Below are positions 6,342-60,320 of a stretch of 64,000 bases of DNA, in pieces. Position 1 is the stretch's first letter, and every line of letters starts with the position of its first letter. The position numbers and the translations under genes are program-made. The stretch is taken from NCBI GenBank assembly GCA_017405965.1, contig JAFQZK010000001.1, positions 124,001 to 188,000 of the forward strand, written 5' to 3'. Under the pieces are notes generated by a model. That model was not told the DNA's origin, did not search any database, and saw nothing but the letters and a program-made list of their open reading frames with translations. Source of the DNA: Muribaculaceae bacterium (lineage in GTDB: Bacteria; Bacteroidota; Bacteroidia; Bacteroidales; Muribaculaceae).

Positions 6342-7154
6342 ATGAGCGACAAGCCAACATTCAATCAAGAAGAACTCAGGGCGAGATTCAACCCCGAGGG
6401 CTCCCCACTGCGCCGCCAACAAATGGTCATGCTCGAAATGGCCAAGGTGTTTGACAGCATCTGCAAGAAACACAACATTCCCTATTTCCTTTATGCTGGT
6501 TCATTGTTGGGTGCTTTCCGTCACAAAGGTTTTATTCCTTGGGACGATGACTTTGATGTGGCTTTGTTGCGCAATGATTATAAGCGTTTGATGAGAATAT
6601 TGCCCGACGAATTGCCGTCAAGTATTGTCTTGCAGAATAATGATACAGATCATAATTACTATTATTTCTATGCAAAGTTACGTGACCGTAATTCATTTCT
6701 TGATGAAGGACTATATGACCATCCGTTTAAGGAACGTGGTATTTTTATTGATATATTTCCATTAGATAGGTTGTGGCCTTGGGTACAGCGTTTACCATTG
6801 CAAAGCTATGCTTTTACACTTCTCAGGGGCGATACGAATTGTGGCGATAAGACAATGCGAAAGATAAGAATGCTAACATGGTTCAACAGACATATCTCTT
6901 TTCCGATTTTGCGTGGTTTTTGCAGAATAACAGGGGCAAAACCTCTCATGTGTGACTTGGGCATTCCTTTCCATCGAGTATATAATTTGAGAGATGTCTT
7001 TCCATTGAGTACACTTTCTTTTGAAGGTACAGAATTCTCTGTACCTTCAAATTGTTCAAGTATGTTGAAAGATATGTATGGCGATTTTATGAAATTGCCA
7101 GAGGATTTAGAAAACGTCTATCATCATGCAGATATATTAGAATTCTATAAATGA
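6342..7154 (+). CDS. licD: LicD family phosphotransferase (phosphocholine-type substituent transfer)
   Basis: 270 residues with the LicD nucleotidyltransferase-fold signature YFLYAGSLLGAFRHKGF followed by IPWDDDFDVAL (about residues 49-77), whose acidic residues bind metal. LicD proteins transfer phosphocholine or related phospho-substituents from a CDP-activated donor to surface glycans. About the first 45-60 codons are GC-rich like galE. From about 6550 on, the gene is distinctly AT-rich, suggesting a recombination junction inside the conserved domain. Last intact gene of the plus operon. Its natural partner is the CTP-using enzyme encoded at 8010-9353. Confidence 0.88.
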   Translation: MSDKPTFNQEELRARFNPEGSPLRRQQMVMLEMAKVFDSICKKHNIPYFLYAGSLLGAFRHKGFIPWDDDFDVALLRNDYKRLMRILPDELPSSIVLQNNDTDHNYYYFYAKLRDRNSFLDEGLYDHPFKERGIFIDIFPLDRLWPWVQRLPLQSYAFTLLRGDTNCGDKTMRKIRMLTWFNRHISFPILRGFCRITGAKPLMCDLGIPFHRVYNLRDVFPLSTLSFEGTEFSVPSNCSSMLKDMYGDFMKLPEDLENVYHHADILEFYK

Positions 7155-7252
7155 AAAAGCGCATATTATTTGCTGTAGATAGTAAGCCATTTTTGCTGAT
7201 GACTATTAATGTGTCTTCAGAAATAACTTGCCAAATTCACAACAATCTTTAA
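7151..7252 (+). pseudogene. truncated start of a lost gene, probably a glycosyltransferase
   Basis: An ATG overlaps the licD stop (ATGA at 7151-7154) and opens a 33-codon frame starting MKKRILFAVDSKPFLL. The hydrophobic beginning with basic leader looks like the first beta-strand of a GT-B glycosyltransferase. After about 22 codons it runs into the 3' end of the convergent acetyltransferase gene (7206) and soon stops at 7250-7252. I read it as the surviving 5' end of the next operon gene, cut off when the minus-strand cassette arrived. It could also be a chance short frame. Confidence 0.45.
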
Positions 7253-7997
7253 AACCAACGCTATGATGAAGGTGAATTGCATTATCCGTGTAGTAAACCG
7301 CATAAATGTCTTTACCCTCTTGATGAAGGTCATGACAAGCTGCTTGATATAACATCTTGGCGTAACCGTGTCCGCGATATTCTTGGTCGGTTATGACATA
7401 GGTAATAATGCAAACGTTGCCGACCTCAGCACCTGTACCAAGATGAGCTACAATTTTGCCATTGTCTTTGATTATGTAGCTTCTGACAAAGCCTTGGCTC
7501 AATCGTTCTCTAAATTGAATCTTCAAGTCCTCAAGCGTATAAGATGCTCCAATGCCTTCATCATGAAACAGTAGAGTAGAAATGTCGTCAACATCATCAA
7601 TAGTTGCCTCTTGAATACAATCGTATTTAATCTGACTAGAATACTCTAATTTACCAACATAACCAAGTTCAATTTCATATCCAAAGATTGAAAGTGAATC
7701 TTTTAGTGCAAGAATTGTAGTTTTTGTTGCGCAGATCTGAGAAGGTCTGAGTTCTTTAATTAAGTTGACGACTTCTTGAACGTTAAAAGAATTTTGGGCG
7801 TAAATGTGCATCGCCGTGTGGTAGGATAGTAATATGCACAAGATTTCACCTGTTTCTTCTTGAATCCAAGTTTTGGTGAAATCGCTTTCTGGTCCGTATT
7901 GGATAAGATCCATGTACAGATAAAGGCAGGCTGCATAGTTCTTTCCAATATATCGTTTGATGCGTTCGGAATCGGCGAGGGTTGATTTTACTATCAT
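7206..7997 (-). CDS. GNAT family N-acetyltransferase
   Basis: 263 residues. The C-terminal half (about 130-260) is a GNAT domain with the acetyl-CoA loop QEYRGHGYAKMLYQ and the late strand IYAVYYTDNAIHLHHSVGFK. The N-terminal half resembles the extra lobe of two-part GNAT enzymes. It would acetylate an amine. AT-rich, last gene of the minus-strand cassette, 12 bases after the fusion gene. Given the aminotransferase in the same cassette, an amino group on the small-molecule product or on the glycan is a plausible target, but this is inference. Confidence 0.8.
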   Translation of the reverse strand: MIVKSTLADSERIKRYIGKNYAACLYLYMDLIQYGPESDFTKTWIQEETGEILCILLSYHTAMHIYAQNSFNVQEVVNLIKELRPSQICATKTTILALKDSLSIFGYEIELGYVGKLEYSSQIKYDCIQEATIDDVDDISTLLFHDEGIGASYTLEDLKIQFRERLSQGFVRSYIIKDNGKIVAHLGTGAEVGNVCIITYVITDQEYRGHGYAKMLYQAACHDLHQEGKDIYAVYYTDNAIHLHHSVGFKDCCEFGKLFLKTH

Positions 7998-8009
7998 AGT
8001 GTTTCAATA

Positions 8010-9353
8010 CTAGATAATTATTAAATTCTTCTTCTTGTAAAAATCTTCGATTAATCTGATGACTGCCTCAGAATAATTCTGGTCAACGTATGAGAAAGAC
8101 TTGTTGCTTGCAATAGACTTCAAAAAGGATACCAACTCATATCTTATACCTTCTCCCTCAAGCTGATAGAAATATCTTTTGTTGTCAGCAGGATTCTCAT
8201 ATCTTAGTTCAAAGTAGTCTGTTTTCCACCAGGGAGCTGGGACGTAGATGTATCCTTTTGTACCGCTAATGATTAGTTCGCCTTCAGACTTAACAGCCTT
8301 TCCTACTTTTACATTGGCTACTGCATGGTCATAAACAAACACTATATTTGTAAATTCATCAAAGTCATCATGGTTTTCCATCATGCGAGAAGCCATGTAC
8401 CTATACTTATAGTTTGTGCCCAATAATTGGAAAACAGGAAGTAATGCAATAGGACCCCATGAGCAAAGACTATTCCATGCTGTGCTCATTTTCTCGTGTT
8501 TGCGTTTGTTGAGGTCTTCCATGCTAGTACAGGTAGCATCAATGGATACTATGTCACCGATTCTTCCACTTTTTACCAAAAGTATCAAGTGATAGTATGC
8601 CAAAGAATATGCCGTTTTTATACCGTCCATTAGGACACAATGCTCTTTGGTGGCAATTTGGGAAAGCGTTTGCCAATCATGGAGGGTGGTTGCAATAGGG
8701 GACTCACACAAGACATGTTTTTTTTGTGATAATGCTTGTTCTATAAGACTGAAATGCTCTCTCGGGTGAGATAAAACATAAATCGCATCAGAATTCTTCA
8801 ATAGCTCATCATAATTGTCAGTAATTAAACTTGAATCTGCCAAAGAATCTGAGAGAAAGAATCTATCGGATATATATATTCCAGAGATAGACAATCCGTT
8901 TACAAATCCGCCTTCATGGATAATCTTATTAACTAGGAAAGATTCACCAACTACACCCAATTTTACATCTCGTTTCTCAGAACGCAGTTCCGAGCTGGAA
9001 ACGCCTTGAGTTCGTTCTAGATAAACGACTTTACAGTACTCTTTCAGATAATCAAATTTGCCAACCCAATCCGAACCGACAGTAAAGATATCAATGTTAT
9101 AGCGTTTAATATCATCTATCTTCTGGCCTTCATACTCTTCAACGATTATCTCATCAGCAATACCTGTCGCTTTGACTGCATCAATACGCTCTATAAGAGA
9201 TTGTTGTACGTTTATCTTGCCGCGGGCCCGGTCAAAATTGTCAGCCGTTACACCGACTATAAGGTAATCCCCCAATGCTTTTGCCCTCTCCAAGAGTCTG
9301 ATATGACCGTAGTGTAGCAGGTCATACGTTCCATAAGTAATTACTTTTACCAT
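8010..9353 (-). CDS. fusion of a TagD-like cytidylyltransferase with a Gfo/Idh/MocA oxidoreductase domain
   Basis: 447 residues. Residues 1-130 form a glycerol-3-phosphate/ethanolamine-phosphate-type cytidylyltransferase: TYGTYDLLHYGH with the HxGH motif (H14-H17) and the family signature RTQGVSSSELR from R114. Residues about 131-447 look like a Gfo/Idh/MocA oxidoreductase, starting KLGVVGESF. The usual EKP motif appears as CESP (216-219), so the conserved lysine is a serine, and the glycine-rich nucleotide loop is poor. The second domain may therefore bind but not oxidise. The enzyme likely makes a CDP-activated alcohol or amino-alcohol phosphate for LicD. AT-rich, between the GNAT and aminotransferase genes. 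Confidence 0.82.
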   Translation of the reverse strand: MVKVITYGTYDLLHYGHIRLLERAKALGDYLIVGVTADNFDRARGKINVQQSLIERIDAVKATGIADEIIVEEYEGQKIDDIKRYNIDIFTVGSDWVGKFDYLKEYCKVVYLERTQGVSSSELRSEKRDVKLGVVGESFLVNKIIHEGGFVNGLSISGIYISDRFFLSDSLADSSLITDNYDELLKNSDAIYVLSHPREHFSLIEQALSQKKHVLCESPIATTLHDWQTLSQIATKEHCVLMDGIKTAYSLAYYHLILLVKSGRIGDIVSIDATCTSMEDLNKRKHEKMSTAWNSLCSWGPIALLPVFQLLGTNYKYRYMASRMMENHDDFDEFTNIVFVYDHAVANVKVGKAVKSEGELIISGTKGYIYVPAPWWKTDYFELRYENPADNKRYFYQLEGEGIRYELVSFLKSIASNKSFSYVDQNYSEAVIRLIEDFYKKKNLIII

Positions 9354-9379
9354 GACATTATAATAGATTGGATGACAGA

Positions 9380-10441
9380 TTACTCAACGTCTAATTCTTT
9401 CAATGCGTCAATAAATTGTTGCATATATTGCTTTTCACCGATAGAAACACGTAAACAAGTTCCATATTCACCAATGTCAGGGTAAGACTTTATTAATATT
9501 CTTTTCTCCTCCTTCATCCGTTTGACGATTAACTTAGCATCCGACTTCGGCTTGATGAAAATGAAGTTGCCAGCTTCCCCGATGTGCATATATCCATTTT
9601 CATCTAGGGTGTGTATAAGGTAGTTACGCCCCTCAATGAATTTATCAATTAATGAATTAAGCATATAAGGGTCAGTTATGACAGCTTCAGCAAACTTCAT
9701 GGCAAATGCGTTAGTATTATGAGGTGTGCATAGCTTTTGTACCATTTTGATTCCCTCGGGCCAACCTACAACATAACCGAGTCGACAACCTGCCAAGGAG
9801 ATCAGTTTTGAGAATGTTCTAGTGACAAATATATGTTCATCACTCAAAGCGTAATTTATAAACGTATTTTTATAATAATAATGGTATGCTTCATCTATGA
9901 GTATTGTAATATGTTTATCTTTTGCTACAGCTAAGATTCTCTTGAATTCTTCTTCACTATATACATTTCCCATGGGATTATTAGGATTGAGTAGAATCAG
10001 GAGTTGAGTGTCGTCGGTCATAGCTTTGATAATGTTGTCAACACTCATTGTCAAATCCTCATTATAGGGGACTTTGACAAAGTTCCGATGATACATCTCT
10101 GAGTAGACTTGAAACATGAAGTATGAAGGAACTACACCAACAATTCTGCCATTCTCAGATGTAAAGGCTTGAATGATATATCGGATTCCTTCGGCTGAGC
10201 CATTTACTAGGCAGATATGTGATATATCAGTATTTAGGAAACTGGCCAGTGTCTCTGAAAAATGAAGTGTCTCGGGATATTGTGATAGGAAATCCGGTGT
10301 GATATCTTTGAGTATCTTATTGACAAACTCCTGAGGGAGACCTCCTGGATTCTCATTTAAATCGAGTCGAAGATATCCTTTTCTCTCATTCTGATCAAAA
10401 ATACGAACAAGACCAACTAGTTGTGGATTAGTATAGTACAT
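9380..10441 (-). CDS. PLP-dependent aminotransferase/decarboxylase, HisC/CobD-like (class I/II fold)
   Basis: 353 residues, fold type I. The substrate-side motif is LDLNENPGG (about 26-34), NPNNPMGNV contains the PLP-stacking Asn, ILIDEAYHYY has the Asp that pairs with the PLP nitrogen (D183), and the Schiff-base lysine is in RTFSKLISLAGCRLGY (K212). The size and motifs resemble histidinol-phosphate aminotransferase and threonine-phosphate decarboxylase. In capsule loci, relatives of this group make serinol phosphate or ethanolamine phosphate. First gene of the minus cassette, 26 bases before the cytidylyltransferase fusion. A role in making its amino-phosphate substrate is inferred. Confidence 0.85.
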   Translation of the reverse strand: MYYTNPQLVGLVRIFDQNERKGYLRLDLNENPGGLPQEFVNKILKDITPDFLSQYPETLHFSETLASFLNTDISHICLVNGSAEGIRYIIQAFTSENGRIVGVVPSYFMFQVYSEMYHRNFVKVPYNEDLTMSVDNIIKAMTDDTQLLILLNPNNPMGNVYSEEEFKRILAVAKDKHITILIDEAYHYYYKNTFINYALSDEHIFVTRTFSKLISLAGCRLGYVVGWPEGIKMVQKLCTPHNTNAFAMKFAEAVITDPYMLNSLIDKFIEGRNYLIHTLDENGYMHIGEAGNFIFIKPKSDAKLIVKRMKEEKRILIKSYPDIGEYGTCLRVSIGEKQYMQQFIDALKELDVE

Positions 10442-23907: not shown

Positions 23908-26900
23908 TTATTCGCCATCAGGCTCATCAGGCAATTCGGTATCTACATGCATGAAGATGAGATACTGAATCAGTGACGTAGCATCGGTGACGTCGATTAC
24001 GCCGTTCTGGTAGAAGTCAGCAGCGACATAGTCATAGATGACATGGAAATTCTCGGGCTCCTCAGGCATCTGCATGACAATGTTGATCAATGCCACAACG
24101 TCCGAGATATTCACAAGACCGTCTCGGGTTACATCACCCTTGATAGCCAGCCTGACGGGATCATAGTCCTTGGTAACAAGCAATGCCTGGTTGGTCTTAG
24201 CCTCCCAGTTGTTATAGAAACCGAGGTGCTGATCGCCATCGCTCAGCGTGCGGATGACACAATCAACAGTGCCTTCATCGTTGGTGAAGGTACACTTCTT
24301 GACATCGTCTTCAGTCAGACCCCAGAAGTACTTGTTGTTGACCATACCGGCATACTTGAGCATCAGGTGCTCATACTTCGCAACATAGTTGTTGTAGAAG
24401 GTTTCACCGAACAAGTCTTTAGCCAGATTGAATACCGACTCAACTTGCGGGGTTCTGATCTGGTACTCCTTGATCAGGTAGTCCGGACCAACAAGCAGGT
24501 TGTCGGTCAGGGCAGTACCGTCGTTGGTATCCAGAGTCAAGGCAATGGGACCAGCAACCAGAGACTTGAGCAGCACGGGAGTCTGAGCGGGAACATTGCC
24601 TGTCAGGGCTTCGAGAATAGCTACACCCTGCTCGTTGATTCCAGTCACCTTGTAGGCAGTTACTACGGTATCGGGCACTGCGTATGCAAAGTCGGTATAG
24701 AGCGTAGTGGCATACTCAAGACCAAGCTTGTTGGCTTCGGAGAAGTTCACGGTGAACGTCTCGCGAGGCTGAACATTCCAATAGGTATTGGCAGCATTAT
24801 TGATGATGTCGGCATTGCCCTCACTGATGTAGTCCACCTTGCCATTCTCCTGCACGATGAAATACTTGGTGTCGGGACGGATCTGCTCGAGCTTGTCAAT
24901 GTAGTTGCCGAACTCGCCTAACTTATTCTTCCACGACTCATAGTTCGGGTTATCTTTCACCTTCTCGAGGTAGAAAGTGGCGGTCTGGTAAGCGAAGTCC
25001 CAAACATACTGCTTGTTGGTCAGTACCTGACGATAGAATGCCATGGTCGATGCGTCATCAACAGGCTTAGTCAGGTTGCCGCCCATGCGCTCCCAGATGG
25101 TCTGGATGCTGAAGGGAACAAGAATGCTGCTACCGTGGCCGTTGGTCTTCTCGAGCACCTTGTTGATGGCGTCGTTGATGAAGTCTTCGAGCATCGGCAG
25201 TTTGGCATCCACCTTAGTCTGATTCTCAAGATAGAAGTCAACAACAGGCTGCATGCTCGGCGTCTTGCCATAGATGCGGCAGTTGTCAAGCGAGCCTTCT
25301 ACATACAGGTGATAGTCGAAGCTCTCGTTGAACTTCTCCATGATAGCGTCCAAACCATCCTTACCGAGCAACTCACCGGTACCCTCGGCATGGAGCTTGT
25401 TGGCAACCATTTGTACAACCTCGGGAACATACCTCATGGCACGGTCGGCATAGCCCTGAAGGTCGGCGCCCTGTGAACGCAGCACCTTAACCTGACCGTT
25501 GTTCGCGGTCTGAACACGGATCACGGTACCGGCCTGCTCGTCGATAGCGTTGGTGAAGGTCATGGTCTTGCGGCCCTGTACGTTGGCATACTGGCCACTG
25601 CCGTTGTTCATAATCTTGTAGTAACCATCAGCAATCTGAACGGGATTCAGCGTGTTGATGGTGTAGGTTGCGCTTGCCTGGTTCTCGGCCCAAACGGTCC
25701 TGTTGCCCATGGTGACCTTAGCGGTTACGGTGCAGCTATGGTCAACAACGAACGGACCGGTGTAGGGCTGGAATTCGCCGTCACCAATCTTGTAGGAGAT
25801 CAATGCGCCAGGGGTAGCGCAGGCAATAGCCACTTCCTTAGCCTCGGTGTAATGACCGCTGCCAGGCATGAATGTCGGAGCAGCAATCTGCACGGGCAGG
25901 TCGATGACATACTCGGCCTCGACAACCTCGCTGTTGGTGTAACCGTCCTTAACGGCGATGGCCTTGATGGTCATGTTCTCGCCTACGGCGATGGCTGCGG
26001 TGTACTTCGTGCTCTCGGTAGTGGGAACGGTGCCGTCGGTGGTGTAATAGATGTCAGCACCAGCGGTCTCACAAGCGATGGTCACGTTCTGAACGCTGTT
26101 GTAATAACCAGCGGCAGGCGTGAACGTCGGAGCGGCAACAACGGGCTTGGCCTCAACAGTGATGATGTAGGAAGCGTTGGCGCCGTTGTAGTTGTCGTTG
26201 GCAGCACCGGTAGCGGTAATGGTGGTCTCACCAACACCAACGATGGTCACGTTACCGTTGTTATCAACAGTGGCAACGTTCACATTGCTGCTCTCGTAAG
26301 TTACATCCAGATTAGCCTCGTTGGTCAGGGTAGGAGCGGTGAACGCTTGACCCTCAACGATGGTAACATGATCAGGACTAAAGCTCAGAGTGGCGTCGGC
26401 CTTTGCCACGGTCAAGGTGTAGGTGGCGGTGGCGCCGTTGTAGTTGTCGTTGGCAGCACCGGTAGCGGTAACAGTGGCGGTACCTACACCGACGATCTCC
26501 AATGCACCGGTTTCGGGGTCAATAGTGGCCACGCCTTCAGGATCGATGCTGTAGGTAACGGTCAGGCCAGCCAGGTTGGTCAGTGCGTTGGCCTCAGGCT
26601 CTCCGCCAAAGGTGGCCTCGATGGACGGCTTAGCGAAACTCAAGGTGGCGTCAGCCTTTGCCACAACGAGGGTGTAGCTTACCGAACCGCCATTGTGTGA
26701 TTCGTCACCCTCGGTGGTAGCGGTAACAGTAGCAGTACCGGCGCCCACGATGGTCACGTTACCATTCTCGTCAACGGTGGCCACACTATCGGGCTCGCAG
26801 CTGTAGGTTACAGTCAGACCGGCGGGGTAGGTCAGCGTGGGCTCCTCAACGTTCTGGTCACCAAATGTTGCGTTGACAGACGGCTTGTCGAAGCTCAGAC

Positions 26901-29808
26901 CGGCAGCCTCCTTGGCCTTGATCTCAACGTTATAGGTTGCGGTGCCTGACAGATAATAGTCATTCTCGGCAGTCGTAGCGGTGATGACGGCAGTGCCGAC
27001 ACCGACGATGGCCACAGTGCCCTCGTTGTCAACAGTGACAACGGCGGGATTGCTGCTCGAGTAGCTCTGGACAGTAACACCATCAGGAGCGGTCAACTCG
27101 GGCTCGGGGAAGTCCTGAACACCCTCATAAACCGAAACACTTGCCGGGTCGAACGACAACTCAGGTGCCTGCTTGGCCAGCGTGGCAGCAGTAGGATAGA
27201 ATTCGATAGCGTTGTTGTTTCTGGTTACAACACCCTCGATGTTATAGTGATTGCCATCCTCGAGAGCAACATTAAAGTGATTAACCACCTTGTAGGTGTA
27301 AGTCACTTCATCGCGATTTTGACCTGCATAGGTGATATTGCCGTCATTGTAGGTGACATCGTCAATCTTGACATACTCGTTAACGTTGTCATCAAACTTC
27401 AACTCCATGCCAGTGCGGTCAAACGGAGCGGCAGTAGCGGTCTCATTGCTGGCCTCAACGAACTCAGCCTTTTGGAATTCTTTCCAGTTATTATAAGGCC
27501 TCAGCTGGGCATACCAGCCGCGCTTGAGGACGTTAGTGGCTTGAACATTGGGAACAGTCACATTACTATTGTTGGCGTTATAATAGATAACGCCACCACC
27601 ATTTTCAGCACCCTTGTCACGGATGAAGATATAGTGATAATTGCTGTTGATGGTGCTCTGTCCGGCATAAGTCACAACAGCATCGCCAGTGAACAGGAAG
27701 TAGCTGTTAGCATCTACTGTATTGGCTGCAGCCACAGTAGCCACGGTTTGGGGCAGTGTGTAGGTAGCCTCGGCAACAGCGCTGTTGGCCATGCCGTCCT
27801 TCATGGCGATGGCCTTGATGGTCATCGTCGAATCAACAGCAATGGCCTCGCCGTAAACGGGACTGTCGGCAGTGGGCTCGCTGCCATCAACGGTGTAGTG
27901 GATGGTGGCATCCTCGGTATCACAGTTGATGGTCACGCTCTGGAAGGTCTTGTAGCTTCCAGCTTCGGGATCAAACGTCGGCGTCTCAACGGTCACGACA
28001 TAAGGTTCAATCTTGAACGTGTTGTCGTTGGCATTGATCGTGATGTCGTAGGTGCCGGGTGCCATCCTGACGGGCTGAGCATCAACATGGCCCGTGTTAA
28101 AGTCAAGAGCCTTGAACTGATTGACGGTAGCATCGGTCAACCACCATGCATCGCCGTTCTCGCTGTAAGGAACAAAACGGTAAGGAGCGATATAGTTCCA
28201 TGCGACCCCGTCAGCGTCGTTAGCAACGCGCTTGGTGAACGAAATCCAGGACATGCCTTCATTGCCGGCGTTGGTTGTCACCCTGACGGTGTAGAGACCG
28301 TCAGCGCCCCTGGTCATAGCAACATAGTTGTTGGGTGCCCAACCACCGTTGTTCACAGTACCCAGGATGTAGAGCGGGCCAGCGTAGTTGTATTCCAGGC
28401 TGGCGGTAACATCGGTAGCACCCTCGCTGCTAAAGGTAGCAGTACCCTCGGCATGCAGGGCCAATCCCTGATAGGTCACCGAGCTGGTGGTTGCGCTCCA
28501 GCCATCGGAAGCCGTAGCGTTTACAGTGCCAGCCGGATCAACCGTTGCACTGATCGTACCAGTCTTGTCGTCACCCGTTTCATCAGTAATAGTTACCGAT
28601 GACGGAGTAACAAAAATCTCGGGAGTAACAGGCTCATCACTCACTTTCTTGTACAGAGCAACAGGCTGCTGGGTTCCATTATAATAGCGGAAACGGTTTT
28701 GATTTGACGCTTTATTATATCGTAATACAAAACCACCAGTACCAGCGATAACTGCGTTGCCCTCATCATCAAATGAAATGGTATTTTGAAGAAGTATTGA
28801 TCCGCTCTCAACATCCATTCCACTTGTAGCGGCTGACCTGCCGATTGATATACCGCTAGCACTCTTCAGAGAATATTTGCTGCCTTCAAGTTTTTTTGCA
28901 GTGAAATATGCTTCTTTGTCGGTTTGAATGACTCCATCATTAATCTCAACAGCAAAATTATTGTTTGCGACATCAAGTGAACTCAGGCTACCATCAAAAG
29001 CAACACTCTGATCCTCACAAACAATCAGATAATCACCTGCAGTGAGCTGTGAAGAGCTGGTGATTTTGCGGTATCGCGTAAGAGAACTAGGATTACTGAT
29101 GGTATAAGTTGCCTCTGCAACTTCGCTGTTCGTCATGCCGCTCTTGACGGCGATGGCCTTGATGGTCATCGTCTCATCGACCGTGATAGGAGTGCTGTAA
29201 ACAGCACTATTCTCGTTAGGAGTATCACCATTAGTCGTATAGTGGATTGTAGCCTCCTCGGTCGCACAAGTAATTGTCACACTCTGTGCTGAGTAGAAGG
29301 TTCCCGCTGCAGGTGAGAATGCGGGAGTCTCTACCTTTTGAGGCGTGTCACCACCAGTTACGTAAGTGATTTCAATTTTGACCCAATAAGCAGCATTGGA
29401 ACCTCTTGTGATTTTAAAATACTTATAGCCTTTTCCACTAAAGTCTCCAGTAATTGAACCGGAGCCTGTTGTTACCTGATTCCATTCATTACCATCAGAA
29501 CTACCAAATATGGTGGTAGACCTTGCCGTTCCAGAATGGGTAATTTTAACACTTTGAATGTTACCAGGATAGGCCGTCGTGTTATAAATAACTCCAGTGT
29601 TTGCTTTGGCTTGAATGTTATCACTGTTTTTCATTAAGTCAGTGTACACATAAGTTATACCATCTATCGTTTTTTCCGTATTTGTCGTATAACTTCCTGT
29701 GAGTTCAAGAGTTGATTGAGTTAGAGTCACTGTTTCGGCCCAGGCTGGCGGTATCGCTAGAACCAGGGCCGCTAAGAAGAATAGTAGTTTAAAATTCAGA
29801 TACTTCAT
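23908..29808 (-). CDS. giant secreted repeat protein (chitobiase-C-type and Big2-like domains, dockerin tail)
   Basis: 1966 residues with a signal peptide ending PPAWAE. About four copies of a chitobiase/FN3-like beta domain are recognisable by the pattern PxFxPxAGxY...VTIxCxT...IHYTxDG...TIKAIA (about 158-237, 606-686, 1226-1298, 1308-1381). Between 883 and 1218 there are four Big2-like repeats (LSFDKPSVxATFG...VATVDENGNVTIVGAGTATVTAT). Other parts include an F5/8-like opening and a helical region (about 1440-1650). Two dockerin-like repeats end it (GDVTRDGLVNISDVVALINI; ADFYQNGVIDVTDATSLIQY). No catalytic site is visible. An adhesin or scaffold role is inferred. Confidence 0.83.
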   Translation of the reverse strand: MKYLNFKLLFFLAALVLAIPPAWAETVTLTQSTLELTGSYTTNTEKTIDGITYVYTDLMKNSDNIQAKANTGVIYNTTAYPGNIQSVKITHSGTARSTTIFGSSDGNEWNQVTTGSGSITGDFSGKGYKYFKITRGSNAAYWVKIEITYVTGGDTPQKVETPAFSPAAGTFYSAQSVTITCATEEATIHYTTNGDTPNENSAVYSTPITVDETMTIKAIAVKSGMTNSEVAEATYTISNPSSLTRYRKITSSSQLTAGDYLIVCEDQSVAFDGSLSSLDVANNNFAVEINDGVIQTDKEAYFTAKKLEGSKYSLKSASGISIGRSAATSGMDVESGSILLQNTISFDDEGNAVIAGTGGFVLRYNKASNQNRFRYYNGTQQPVALYKKVSDEPVTPEIFVTPSSVTITDETGDDKTGTISATVDPAGTVNATASDGWSATTSSVTYQGLALHAEGTATFSSEGATDVTASLEYNYAGPLYILGTVNNGGWAPNNYVAMTRGADGLYTVRVTTNAGNEGMSWISFTKRVANDADGVAWNYIAPYRFVPYSENGDAWWLTDATVNQFKALDFNTGHVDAQPVRMAPGTYDITINANDNTFKIEPYVVTVETPTFDPEAGSYKTFQSVTINCDTEDATIHYTVDGSEPTADSPVYGEAIAVDSTMTIKAIAMKDGMANSAVAEATYTLPQTVATVAAANTVDANSYFLFTGDAVVTYAGQSTINSNYHYIFIRDKGAENGGGVIYYNANNSNVTVPNVQATNVLKRGWYAQLRPYNNWKEFQKAEFVEASNETATAAPFDRTGMELKFDDNVNEYVKIDDVTYNDGNITYAGQNRDEVTYTYKVVNHFNVALEDGNHYNIEGVVTRNNNAIEFYPTAATLAKQAPELSFDPASVSVYEGVQDFPEPELTAPDGVTVQSYSSSNPAVVTVDNEGTVAIVGVGTAVITATTAENDYYLSGTATYNVEIKAKEAAGLSFDKPSVNATFGDQNVEEPTLTYPAGLTVTYSCEPDSVATVDENGNVTIVGAGTATVTATTEGDESHNGGSVSYTLVVAKADATLSFAKPSIEATFGGEPEANALTNLAGLTVTYSIDPEGVATIDPETGALEIVGVGTATVTATGAANDNYNGATATYTLTVAKADATLSFSPDHVTIVEGQAFTAPTLTNEANLDVTYESSNVNVATVDNNGNVTIVGVGETTITATGAANDNYNGANASYIITVEAKPVVAAPTFTPAAGYYNSVQNVTIACETAGADIYYTTDGTVPTTESTKYTAAIAVGENMTIKAIAVKDGYTNSEVVEAEYVIDLPVQIAAPTFMPGSGHYTEAKEVAIACATPGALISYKIGDGEFQPYTGPFVVDHSCTVTAKVTMGNRTVWAENQASATYTINTLNPVQIADGYYKIMNNGSGQYANVQGRKTMTFTNAIDEQAGTVIRVQTANNGQVKVLRSQGADLQGYADRAMRYVPEVVQMVANKLHAEGTGELLGKDGLDAIMEKFNESFDYHLYVEGSLDNCRIYGKTPSMQPVVDFYLENQTKVDAKLPMLEDFINDAINKVLEKTNGHGSSILVPFSIQTIWERMGGNLTKPVDDASTMAFYRQVLTNKQYVWDFAYQTATFYLEKVKDNPNYESWKNKLGEFGNYIDKLEQIRPDTKYFIVQENGKVDYISEGNADIINNAANTYWNVQPRETFTVNFSEANKLGLEYATTLYTDFAYAVPDTVVTAYKVTGINEQGVAILEALTGNVPAQTPVLLKSLVAGPIALTLDTNDGTALTDNLLVGPDYLIKEYQIRTPQVESVFNLAKDLFGETFYNNYVAKYEHLMLKYAGMVNNKYFWGLTEDDVKKCTFTNDEGTVDCVIRTLSDGDQHLGFYNNWEAKTNQALLVTKDYDPVRLAIKGDVTRDGLVNISDVVALINIVMQMPEEPENFHVIYDYVAADFYQNGVIDVTDATSLIQYLIFMHVDTELPDEPDGE
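26150..27160. repeat. internal DNA repeats encoding Big2-like domains
   Basis: About 80-codon units recur four times inside the giant gene, with near-identical DNA in places: GCCGTTGTAGTTGTCGTTGG occurs at 26182 and again at 26434, followed in both by the same GCAGCACCGGTAGCGGTAA. Such homology allows copy-number change by recombination or slippage. Confidence 0.8.
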
Positions 29809-57490: not shown

Positions 57491-57561
57491 ACAATCCCCC
57501 AAAATACCTAATGCGACCTCATTAAAAAATAGCCCATCACAAGATTGATAAGGCACATGCC

Positions 57562-59061
57562 CTATGTATCATTGGGTTCTTCGATGAGCTTGTGGTGTTT
57601 TTTCTTACATCTGGCATTGAAATATCCAAGACTCCAGTCCAAAACAAACCAAAGTGCAACTAGAGATAAGAGTTTAAGAAGAATCCAAATCTCGTTTTCC
57701 CAAAAACTCGGAGATAGAAAAAACTCTTCAAGTCGTCGGTAAGATTTTGTTAAAATGCTGGGTGCAAATACACTTCCATGAACAGCCCTGTTAATCTTTA
57801 CATTGATCAAGACATCTCCTACATTATCATTATACCACATGGTGGCCAAATCCTCGTCCCAATCGCCCCAAGCAGTAAGAGTATCAATATCATCTTTAGT
57901 CCATCCTATTAATTCTTGATACTTCTTATCGCTTTTGATAATGTCAAAACATGTTTTAGAAATGAACGCCTCTTTTCCAGTTTTGTAATTGTATAGAACT
58001 ATGGTGCTGTCATTCTGTGGATTATTATGCTTAATAGCGCTATCAAGTTTATTATAAACTTTTATTGGTAATTTAGCGAAATTATAGATTCCTAAAGAAT
58101 CCCGTAATTTTGAGTCGTACTTGATACGATTAAACCATGATTCAGTGATATATTCATCATTGACAGCAAAGTGAAGATAACCGGATTCCTTTACGTTGAA
58201 ATGCAATGCGCTGAGAGTTGTATCGGATTCGTCTTGGGTGATTATATTGTCAAGGTAGGGTGGTGTGCTTAGGGAAGGATACCTGATTAGGACTAGAAGG
58301 AGACCGAATCTGTTGTTAGTTTTCCTGTTCTGACTTTTGTTGAGATTGGTCATTAGCAATTCTGCATCTTTGGTACTGTCTGGTGTCTCTTTCCAGTTCC
58401 TATCAAAGGAGACATATGTTCTATTATAATTGGGCACATTGTTATTGAGAGCTGCGGCGCACATTCTATCAATATCACTGAAGAATGAGCCTGACACAGT
58501 AATGTTCACTTCGTCGCCTTCTAATACTTTTATGCCTGAATTCTCCCAACAACGAGCTGTATTGAGCAGATACATATAGCTTTCACGTTCACATGATTGA
58601 GGCATTGTTATAGCACCATATTCATTAACTTGGAGATCGGGGGGAGAAAACAGTACACTCTTAATGAAAAAAACAAGTACTGCAACAATCAACATGACGA
58701 AGAGCATGAAGGATGAAAAGAAAATGATGAAATTGAATCGTGGTGATTGACTCAAATCACATTTCTTTCCAGTGATAACTCTTTTGATGAAAGAAGCAAT
58801 CCAATAAAATGCAAAAATCAATAGTTTAGCTACATAAACAACCATTGAATACAAGAAGTAGGTGACAGGGAATCTATGATTTCCTGTTTTGGCTGCCCTG
58901 AACCTCGCTTTGATGTGGTCGCCTATATGAAACTGTTCACCATTGTGTCGCCCGTCCTTGAGCAAATCCAAAAGACGGGTCTCTTCAATGAGTTCGATAT
59001 TGCCCTTGGTACCAATAATACTATTGCCCAAGATTTTTTCTATGATTGAATTGATATTCAT
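57562..59061 (-). CDS. membrane-anchored protein with a LecA-like beta domain, paralogue A
   Basis: 499 residues, not a family I can name. The cytoplasmic N-terminus (about 1-65) precedes two membrane segments (about 70-92 and 112-136). An outside domain (about 140-430) starts LLNTARCWENSGIKVLEGD and has GSFFSDIDR, GYLHFAVNDEYI and near its end WYNDNVGDVLINVKI. A last membrane segment (about 465-485) and a basic tail follow. The motifs W-x-NSGI-V--GD--I--SG, LHFAVND and W-x-DN-G---I parallel the PA-IL/LecA lectin pattern, where the Asp of YND and the Asn of NNSG bind calcium. AT-rich, six bases after its paralogue. Confidence 0.6.
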   Translation of the reverse strand: MNINSIIEKILGNSIIGTKGNIELIEETRLLDLLKDGRHNGEQFHIGDHIKARFRAAKTGNHRFPVTYFLYSMVVYVAKLLIFAFYWIASFIKRVITGKKCDLSQSPRFNFIIFFSSFMLFVMLIVAVLVFFIKSVLFSPPDLQVNEYGAITMPQSCERESYMYLLNTARCWENSGIKVLEGDEVNITVSGSFFSDIDRMCAAALNNNVPNYNRTYVSFDRNWKETPDSTKDAELLMTNLNKSQNRKTNNRFGLLLVLIRYPSLSTPPYLDNIITQDESDTTLSALHFNVKESGYLHFAVNDEYITESWFNRIKYDSKLRDSLGIYNFAKLPIKVYNKLDSAIKHNNPQNDSTIVLYNYKTGKEAFISKTCFDIIKSDKKYQELIGWTKDDIDTLTAWGDWDEDLATMWYNDNVGDVLINVKINRAVHGSVFAPSILTKSYRRLEEFFLSPSFWENEIWILLKLLSLVALWFVLDWSLGYFNARCKKKHHKLIEEPNDT

Positions 59062-59067
59062 TGCCTA

Positions 59068-60153
59068 TCACTTTCTTTTTCGTTCAATGACAATGAGGAA
59101 TGACCCGAGATTGTCCACATACCAAGCATCTTTAAACTTCTTTTGCTTATAGTATACAAGCTCATTAACTAGGGGATATGCACTTTCGTAATCCAAGCTA
59201 TCGGTTTTAGGAAATCTCCCTGGTGCAATTCCTGTTTTTTCGGCTTTTAATTTAGATAATGAGTCTGGTATAAGACTATTATTCTTCACAAGAAAACCAA
59301 TCAAGTCGGTAGTGGGTATGCTTTGTTCTTTCTGATTAATTTTTTTGAAAGAGTTAATGATTGTATCTCTTTGTTCAGCCAGACCGTTCGAAATGTTTTT
59401 ATCAACAGAAATAGAATATATATAATCATGATACATCAAGTCCAATATAGAGTCAGTCAGAACAATATCATTGACTGCAAAATGGAGTATTCCAGACTTG
59501 CTGATGTACAGAGTGCGTTCTTTACCAATCACTTCTATGTCTTGGTATAGAAGTTCATCGCCCCAATCAGAAAAGGATTGTTGAGCGTTTTTATGATCGA
59601 TGATTTTCATTAAGAGGATTCCCTCGGGTGCTTCATGGCACAACCTATACTTTGACCTAGCCAAGTCTCGAGGGTTATCTTTATCTTTAGGTTGCCCTTC
59701 AGTACCAACCCATTTGTCTTGAGGTATTCTATTCTTTTCTGAAGCATCAACAAGGTGATGAATTGCAGTAAACGAGCTGCCTGAGGCCCTAATAGTCAAG
59801 ATGTCGCCTTCTTGTACTTCAATGCCAGAATTAGCCCAAAGGTCCGCTGTATTGAATAGCCAATAGATGACATCTTTGTCTTCGTTTTTTACTATTGTCG
59901 CTCCTTGAACGTTAGTTTCAATGATGTTATATGGGTAGAACTTCTTAATGGATATAACCACAAAAGCAAGACCTATAAACAGGATGATAATCAATAAGAA
60001 TAATGAAACCAGTACACGCCACATTTTCGCCGGTTCGTTAAGCAGGTCGAAAAGTTGCTTGTGCCGTTTAACCGTAATTTCAATTTTCGGCTGGTTCATT
60101 GGGTCTTGATTCGAGGGATTTTCTTTGTCTAAGATTTGGTTGTCCATATCCAT
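59068..60153 (-). CDS. membrane-anchored protein with a LecA-like beta domain, paralogue B
   Basis: 361 residues. A polar N-terminus is followed by one membrane segment (about 46-68), then an outside domain to the C-terminus. It shares with its neighbour LFNTADLWANSGIEVQEGD, GSSFTAIHH, GILHFAVNDIVL and WYVDNLGSFLIVIE. It additionally has EGILLMKIIDH, very like LVMKIG in the LecA lectin. About 100 residues are inserted between the AVND and DNLG strands relative to LecA. It lacks the C-terminal membrane segment of paralogue A. AT-rich. Function is unknown; sugar or calcium binding is inferred from motif parallels only. Confidence 0.6.
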   Translation of the reverse strand: MDMDNQILDKENPSNQDPMNQPKIEITVKRHKQLFDLLNEPAKMWRVLVSLFLLIIILFIGLAFVVISIKKFYPYNIIETNVQGATIVKNEDKDVIYWLFNTADLWANSGIEVQEGDILTIRASGSSFTAIHHLVDASEKNRIPQDKWVGTEGQPKDKDNPRDLARSKYRLCHEAPEGILLMKIIDHKNAQQSFSDWGDELLYQDIEVIGKERTLYISKSGILHFAVNDIVLTDSILDLMYHDYIYSISVDKNISNGLAEQRDTIINSFKKINQKEQSIPTTDLIGFLVKNNSLIPDSLSKLKAEKTGIAPGRFPKTDSLDYESAYPLVNELVYYKQKKFKDAWYVDNLGSFLIVIERKRK

Positions 60154-60175
60154 AAGATTCAGTTTTTGAGTTTTT

Positions 60176-60184
60176 GCAAAAATA
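60176..60184 (-). promoter_or_regulatory. candidate -7 element for the LecA-like pair
   Basis: TATTTTTGC on the minus strand, 23 bases before the ATG at 60153. TTG occurs upstream at a short 16-bp spacing. The 204-base gap to dnaE is otherwise AT-rich without other features. Confidence 0.45.
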
Positions 60185-60290
60185 ATATAAAAAATTCAAA
60201 CAAGACGGTTTTATTTTCAAATAATAGGCACTATTTGGGATTTTTGAGACGAAGAGATCAATGATATGATTTGTTGTTAATAACTTTATT

Positions 60291-60320
60291 TTGGTGATTG
60301 CAAAAAATGGTGTAATTTTA
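60291..60320 (+). promoter_or_regulatory. promoter for dnaE
   Basis: TTG at 60291-60293, a 19-bp spacer, TAATTTTA at 60313-60320 (last base differs from TAnnTTTG). The ATG lies 37 bases further on. Confidence 0.55.

Follow-up and report, generated by a model that had tools for sequence, protein, structure and literature searches.

A membrane-anchored pair of paralogues with a predicted LecA-type fold and a variable lid in Bacteroidia

The stretch of Muribaculaceae DNA analysed here (the window, 64,000 nucleotides of contig JAFQZK010000001.1) carries two adjacent genes, A and B. Judging by structural models, their products represent a new variant of the LecA fold that is membrane-bound, paired and furnished with a lid. 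LecA-type domains are known as soluble lectins. A membrane-anchored pair with this fold and with a lid at the sugar loop, found in another phylum, broadens what the LecA fold does and offers a concrete way to test whether sensing or defence has put the LecA calcium site to new use. The matches listed from the open-access literature include no description of such membrane-anchored LecA-fold proteins, which does not imply their absence from print. The best overall explanation, to which we give a probability of about one half, is an inner-membrane complex of A and B whose LecA-type domains lie in the periplasm, bear lids and hold a calcium-bridged ligand. The main competing explanations are a calcium site with a purely structural function and a role in defence or exclusion.

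Paralogous domains with a predicted LecA-type fold

An earlier note on this DNA had described a tandem pair of membrane proteins with split LecA-like domains. Both open reading frames (ORFs) lie exactly where it placed them, on the minus strand and separated by a spacer of 6 bases in the window's ORF list. The motifs on which that description relied (W-x-NSGI-x-V-x-EGD-x-x-x-I-x-x-SG, LHFAVND and WY-x-DN-x-G) are all present in both proteins. A BLASTP comparison (53 of 178 positions identical, 30%; E = 5e-14) identifies A and B as paralogues, and an E-value this low means that their shared motifs are not due to chance. The membrane anchors are likewise borne out by hydropathy, with one segment in A and three in B, and a hydrophobic membrane segment is found in every sequence examined (17 A and 16 B). 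Scans of A and B against Pfam, NCBIfam and PADLOC gave no match above any cut-off, and the PHROGs scan gave none with E below 0.07. For A the top Pfam row was NaeI (E = 0.0023; 5 of the 18 A members), which falls short of the cut-off and was taken as chance.

The predicted models of both proteins form a jelly-roll beta-sandwich of the LecA type. In both structure comparisons LecA, PllA and the N-terminal domain of EclA (EclA-N) ranked first for A as well as for B, and no unrelated fold stood ahead of them. The structural alignment spans 117 of the 120 LecA residues up to residue 121, and this coverage suggests that the Asp and Asn residues of the motifs cluster in space. Taking the models as they stand, we regard the LecA fold of A and B as almost certain. 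The known representatives differ from the pair in several respects. LecA, or PA-IL, of Pseudomonas aeruginosa (PDB 2vxj, 1l7l, 4cp9) is a soluble homotetramer (PMC10243309) of small subunits of about 120 residues, whereas A and B, paralogues of 361 and 499 residues, are anchored in the membrane, carry a long insert in the ligand loop and have no PF07828 score. PllA of Photorhabdus luminescens (PDB 5ofz, 5odu), also a homotetramer of about 120 residues, has no room for such a lid. The N-terminal LecA domain of EclA from Enterobacter cloacae (PDB 6ygq) shares its chain with a fucose-binding domain and occurs as a homodimer; it is not known to be membrane-bound, and its moved loop, residues 70-82, is not the one that bears the lid in A and B (PMC11875179).

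In EclA, Asp114, Asp121 and Asn122 coordinate calcium through their side chains, Asn54 and Gln118 through their backbone (PMC11875179), and galactose is contacted in LecA by Asp100 and Asn107, with His50, Pro51 and Gln53 (PMC10243309). By motif register, the pattern Asp...[Asp/Asn]-Asn recurs in A and B, and the motif residues that the earlier note had linked to calcium and sugar binding fall on the LecA calcium-ligand positions and are near-invariant: D229 (17/18), D347 (17/17) and N348 (17/17) in A, and D302 (16/16), D412 (15/16) and N413 (16/16) in B. This conservation makes it likely that calcium occupies the site. A has 117 residues between the first and second putative ligands and B has 109, in keeping with the proposed insertion of 100-250 residues, and this stretch falls within the ligand loop, which in LecA binds galactose. 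The spacing varies among relatives, between 48 and 205 in A (measured in 16 of 17) and between 4 and 152 in B (16 of 16); for the A of L014 the scripted value of 16 was a false early match (about 63 by eye), and that row was dropped. Taken together, the fold ranking, the conserved ligand positions and the insert in the ligand loop leave the structural part of the earlier description, a LecA-like domain with its motifs in LecA order, standing well.

The lid changes faster than the rest of the domain, as its mean pairwise identity is 21% in A against 53% for the core (15 rows, without L006, L019 and L021) and 16% in B against 34% (14 rows, without L006 and L019; 78 pairs with enough lid). The B of L020, which has only four residues at this place, suggests that the lid grew out of a short turn like that of LecA; the same short turn, VND-NFFG-DN, is found in L065. 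The L065 protein (L065:1282-1869), a lipoprotein-like protein of Bacteroidota with the turn VND-NFFG-DNVGS, scores above the PF07828 cut-off (23.2 vs 22.5 bits) and is a possible bridge between LecA and the A/B family. It was the one match of the PF07828 profile in 296 genomes of the phylum, the controls giving 1 in 14, below the cut-off; the window's own genome gave none, and likewise 0 of 14 control genomes, so that this last result is uninformative. PDB rows found by phmmer and profile searches with whole A or B were taken as chance. With the core profile EclA-N came second (E = 0.57), and the short-loop B of L020 returned no PDB row and no PF07828 row.

Beyond the triad, E91, H132, H133, R166, R170, E331 and Y335 are near-invariant in A (alignment A2 contains the window's A without its first Met), and the first five of these are not conserved in the 14 B rows of the joint core alignment; the B of the window nevertheless has the same residues opposite R170 and E331. 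The A lid is poorly conserved apart from a few residues such as E331, Y335 and W344. In B, the first hydrophobic helix is missing from the proteins of L014, L015, L016 and L020 by alignment and of L017 by hydropathy.

Pairing, distribution and insertion site

A scan of 84,980 species genomes yielded 17 loci. All carry a Bacteroidia label, and the names of 16 place them in a Bacteroidales lineage, genus names being assigned to that order by common usage. Sixteen loci have B directly after A in the same orientation, and in L021 the contig ends inside A. With mechanically assigned start codons, the junction ranges from a 29-base overlap to a 6-base gap. Leaving aside a sister at 93% (A) and 95% (B), identity to the window's proteins is 31-53% for A and 22-32% for B. 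The nearest A after the sister is that of Barnesiella (53%); Prevotella P5-108 is lower (41%), though the sister bears a Prevotellaceae label. Across genomes, the pairwise distances between A proteins correlate with those between B proteins (r = 0.82 over 16 genomes; without near-duplicates 0.75 over 14 and 0.69 over 13, each reached in 0 of 5000 permutations). This correlation shows co-inheritance and fits a partnership, and the pair thus emerges as a conserved unit.

The pair is also rare. It was found in 2 of 200 genomes of relatives (single-protein query), 3 of 397 of the family, 5 of 393 of the order and 1 of 395 of the phylum, the own genome being counted each time and the draws overlapping. 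Phages gave no match, and the 42 pattern matches in viral contigs included no relative. Outside the phylum, a plasmid of the cyanobacterium Fischerella sp. NIES-4106 (AP018301.1, L028:9674-10724) carries a relative of A (tblastn E = 4e-4; E = 6e-18 with the core profile, searched against the ORFs of L028 only). By sequence it belongs to the same family, sharing with A the membrane segment, the core and the DN tail; unlike the pair, it is a single gene, spread over two overlapping ORFs in different frames, with no second copy within the 20 kb around it. It is either a degraded gene or the product of a sequencing error. In L017, B reads without a stop into phosphoglucomutase-like sequence (L017:1531-4449, 973 residues in total; likeness by eye), which may be a true fusion or reflect a fault in assembly or sequencing. 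This B was excluded from alignment A3 and from the distance test.

Two genomes of the same genus have the corresponding site empty: the DUF5686 gene is followed by dnaE after 198 bp in G006 and 113 bp in G018. In the window this distance is 2867 bp, and A and B are the only substantial genes between. A 23-base block before dnaE recurs in the window and at both empty sites, which limits the insertion to, at most, the block given in Table 1. The comparison drew on 27 fetched loci, one of them the window's own; dnaE stood beside DUF5686 only in L039 and L040, and the others, with a flank of about 1.5 kb and no dnaE in range, say nothing either way. Within the block there is no further integrase-sized ORF in the window's list, the longest tract common to its edges is 5 bases, and no target duplication was seen. 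The earlier note had inferred transfer from base composition. Acquisition is supported by the empty sites and the sporadic occurrence; low guanine-plus-cytosine (GC) content is a weaker sign, since the value of the pair, 0.376 against 0.523 for the rest of the window, is below that of the flanks in 11 of 14 loci (without L014, L017 and L021) and above it in 3, and AT-richness is not general. The distribution favours something dispensable and transferred, and the pair looks like a small travelling module.

A possible role for the pair

What, then, might the pair do? We propose that A and B would form two subunits of a small inner-membrane complex, each placing one LecA-type beta-sandwich in the periplasm. 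Such a heteromer is quite likely, since paralogous domains encoded side by side are inherited together, and both LecA and PllA assemble as homotetramers. The domain of A is probably periplasmic, with the N-terminus inside, given its single N-terminal membrane segment and, by eye, the lack of a lipobox. The surface location that the earlier note had also allowed is unlikely, as the N-terminal membrane anchors of the pair point to the periplasm. The LecA calcium site would be retained, and the loop that holds the sugar would have grown into a variable, mostly helical lid that sets ligand specificity. A would be the ligand-binding subunit, because of its additional near-invariant polar residues, and B the anchoring or relaying one, because its domain has membrane segments on either side. 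Through calcium, the Asp/Asp/Asn triad would be linked to a periplasmic ligand, for which a glycan is the leading, if tentative, candidate; the conserved arginines of A hint that it may be acidic, as was suggested for the ligand of EclA from its arginine patch (PMC11875179). The operon would be inherited and transferred as a unit, with no mobility genes of its own. The pair probably recognises something outside the inner membrane; a signalling role is doubtful.

Several observations weigh against this explanation. The model of B is poor (predicted local distance difference test 61, predicted template modelling score 0.50), and its margin over unrelated folds is small (6.8 vs 6.1). By sequence A and B do not pass as members of PF07828: that profile gave no row against the window's A and B at E up to 10, it is absent from the families found at E up to 1 for 18 A (15 families) and 16 B (24 families), and hhalign against a PF07828 protein was weak (E = 0.0024, probability 12%; E = 0.0095, 4%). 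The ligand positions were matched by motif register, not by residue-level structural alignment, and the lid replaces the stretch that provides the backbone ligand Gln118 in EclA, so that the putative site may be altered. The LecA domain of EclA binds calcium, but intense efforts reportedly found no ligand for it (PMC11875179); a conserved calcium site is thus no proof of a lectin. Among the 76 neighbouring ORFs scanned (of 164 listed, none from L019), the best 25 of 90 Pfam and 25 of 39 PADLOC families point to no partner whose signalling output is known. The insertion edges share at most 5 bases, which indicates no particular mode of transfer.

The LecA domains could instead be structural only, with calcium stabilising the fold, and lids and beta-faces forming the A-B interface of a factor for envelope assembly or anchoring that binds no sugar. 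Such a role would agree with the presence of the calcium triad in B, even though most of A's additional polar residues are missing there, with the retention of calcium by EclA-N, for which no ligand is reported (PMC11875179), and with the origin of the lid from the galactose-binding loop. It is rather unlikely; against it, H132, H133, R166, R170, E331 and Y335 of A exceed what a fold needs, if they lie near the putative site. That A and B resemble LecA only through a general jelly-roll likeness, with neither common descent nor a shared site, is already disfavoured and very improbable.

An anti-phage, anti-bacteriocin or exclusion module, in which the variable lids recognise an invader's component in the periplasm while the effector function falls to the membrane segments, would account for the sporadic presence of a two-gene operon at unrelated sites, for its insertion with no recognised mobility genes, and for a quickly changing lid over a conserved core; single neighbours, moreover, match Cas1 and Cas2 (type II) strongly, and the candidates PDC-S01, S04 and S13. 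Yet no PADLOC-DB 2.0.0 family matches A or B at E up to 10, each of the listed PADLOC families has one member only, the listed Pfam families of the neighbours are mostly housekeeping (HSP70, seryl-tRNA synthetase, ribosomal L2/L4, DNA polymerase III), and no relative occurs in the viral contigs or phages searched. The defence context is thin and a module of this kind improbable. A bolder version of the inner-membrane complex, a mobile recognition module, would have a LecA-fold heterodimer in which the fast-changing lid on the calcium and sugar loop picks the ligand (a phage or bacteriocin component, or an acidic glycan of a rival or host), with A as receptor and B as membrane relay or effector; taken as a whole, it is less probable still.

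Coordinates, neighbouring genes and other features

Table 1. Features of the A-B locus in coordinates of the window
Feature	Position	Strand	Description
Gene A	59068..60153	-	361 residues; short N-terminus, one membrane segment, predicted LecA-fold ectodomain
A membrane segment	59929..60036	-	Residues 40-75; hydropathy; segment also in A of 16/16 relatives
A conserved beta core before insert	59467..59916	-	Residues 80-229; ends at putative calcium ligand D229
A inserted lid	59116..59466	-	Residues 230-346; mostly helical; lower model confidence
A last beta strand	59071..59115	-	Opens with putative calcium ligands D347-N348 (DN-x-GSFL)
Gene B	57562..59061	-	499 residues; paralogue of A with additional hydrophobic segments
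B first hydrophobic helix	58783..58872	-	Residues 64-93; hydropathy and alignment
B membrane segment	58633..58743	-	Residues 107-143; hydropathy
B beta core before insert	58156..58632	-	Residues 144-302; ends at putative calcium ligand D302
B insert	57829..58155	-	Residues 303-411
B last strand of domain	57787..57828	-	With D412-N413
B C-terminal membrane segment	57625..57696	-	Residues 456-479, then basic tail; hydropathy
Maximal inserted block	57491..60273	.	A, B and spacers; absent between DUF5686 and dnaE in G006 (L039) and G018 (L040)
23-base block before dnaE	60274..60296	+	Also in both empty sites; right edge of insertion

The 17 loci mostly have different flanking genes, the exceptions being the near-identical L018 and L019 and a few isolated pairs. 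A gene of 107-109 residues stands beside B in three loci (L018:10598-10918, L019:10547-10873 and L022:11031-11351), convergent in two and co-directional in one; its product resembles TerB below the Pfam cut-off in L022 and shows no such resemblance in L018. In two loci an Exo_endo_phos gene with a lipoprotein-like N-terminus lies directly downstream of the pair (L014:2339-3190 and L022:11351-12235), in L022 after the 107-residue gene, and is a possible accessory gene. Neither gene was counted as a third conserved component, and neither is in the window.

Elsewhere in the window, a second AT-rich stretch at 6342-10441 (GC 0.37-0.39) encodes a LicD-family protein, an acetyltransferase, a fusion of a cytidylyltransferase-like domain with GFO_IDH_MocA, and a class I/II aminotransferase. 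It adjoins a polysaccharide-flippase-like gene and an epimerase gene and is probably a cluster for surface-glycan decoration. At 23908-29808 the window encodes a protein of 1966 residues with matches to CHB_HEX_C_1, Fn3_assoc, Big_2 and a C-terminal dockerin type I.
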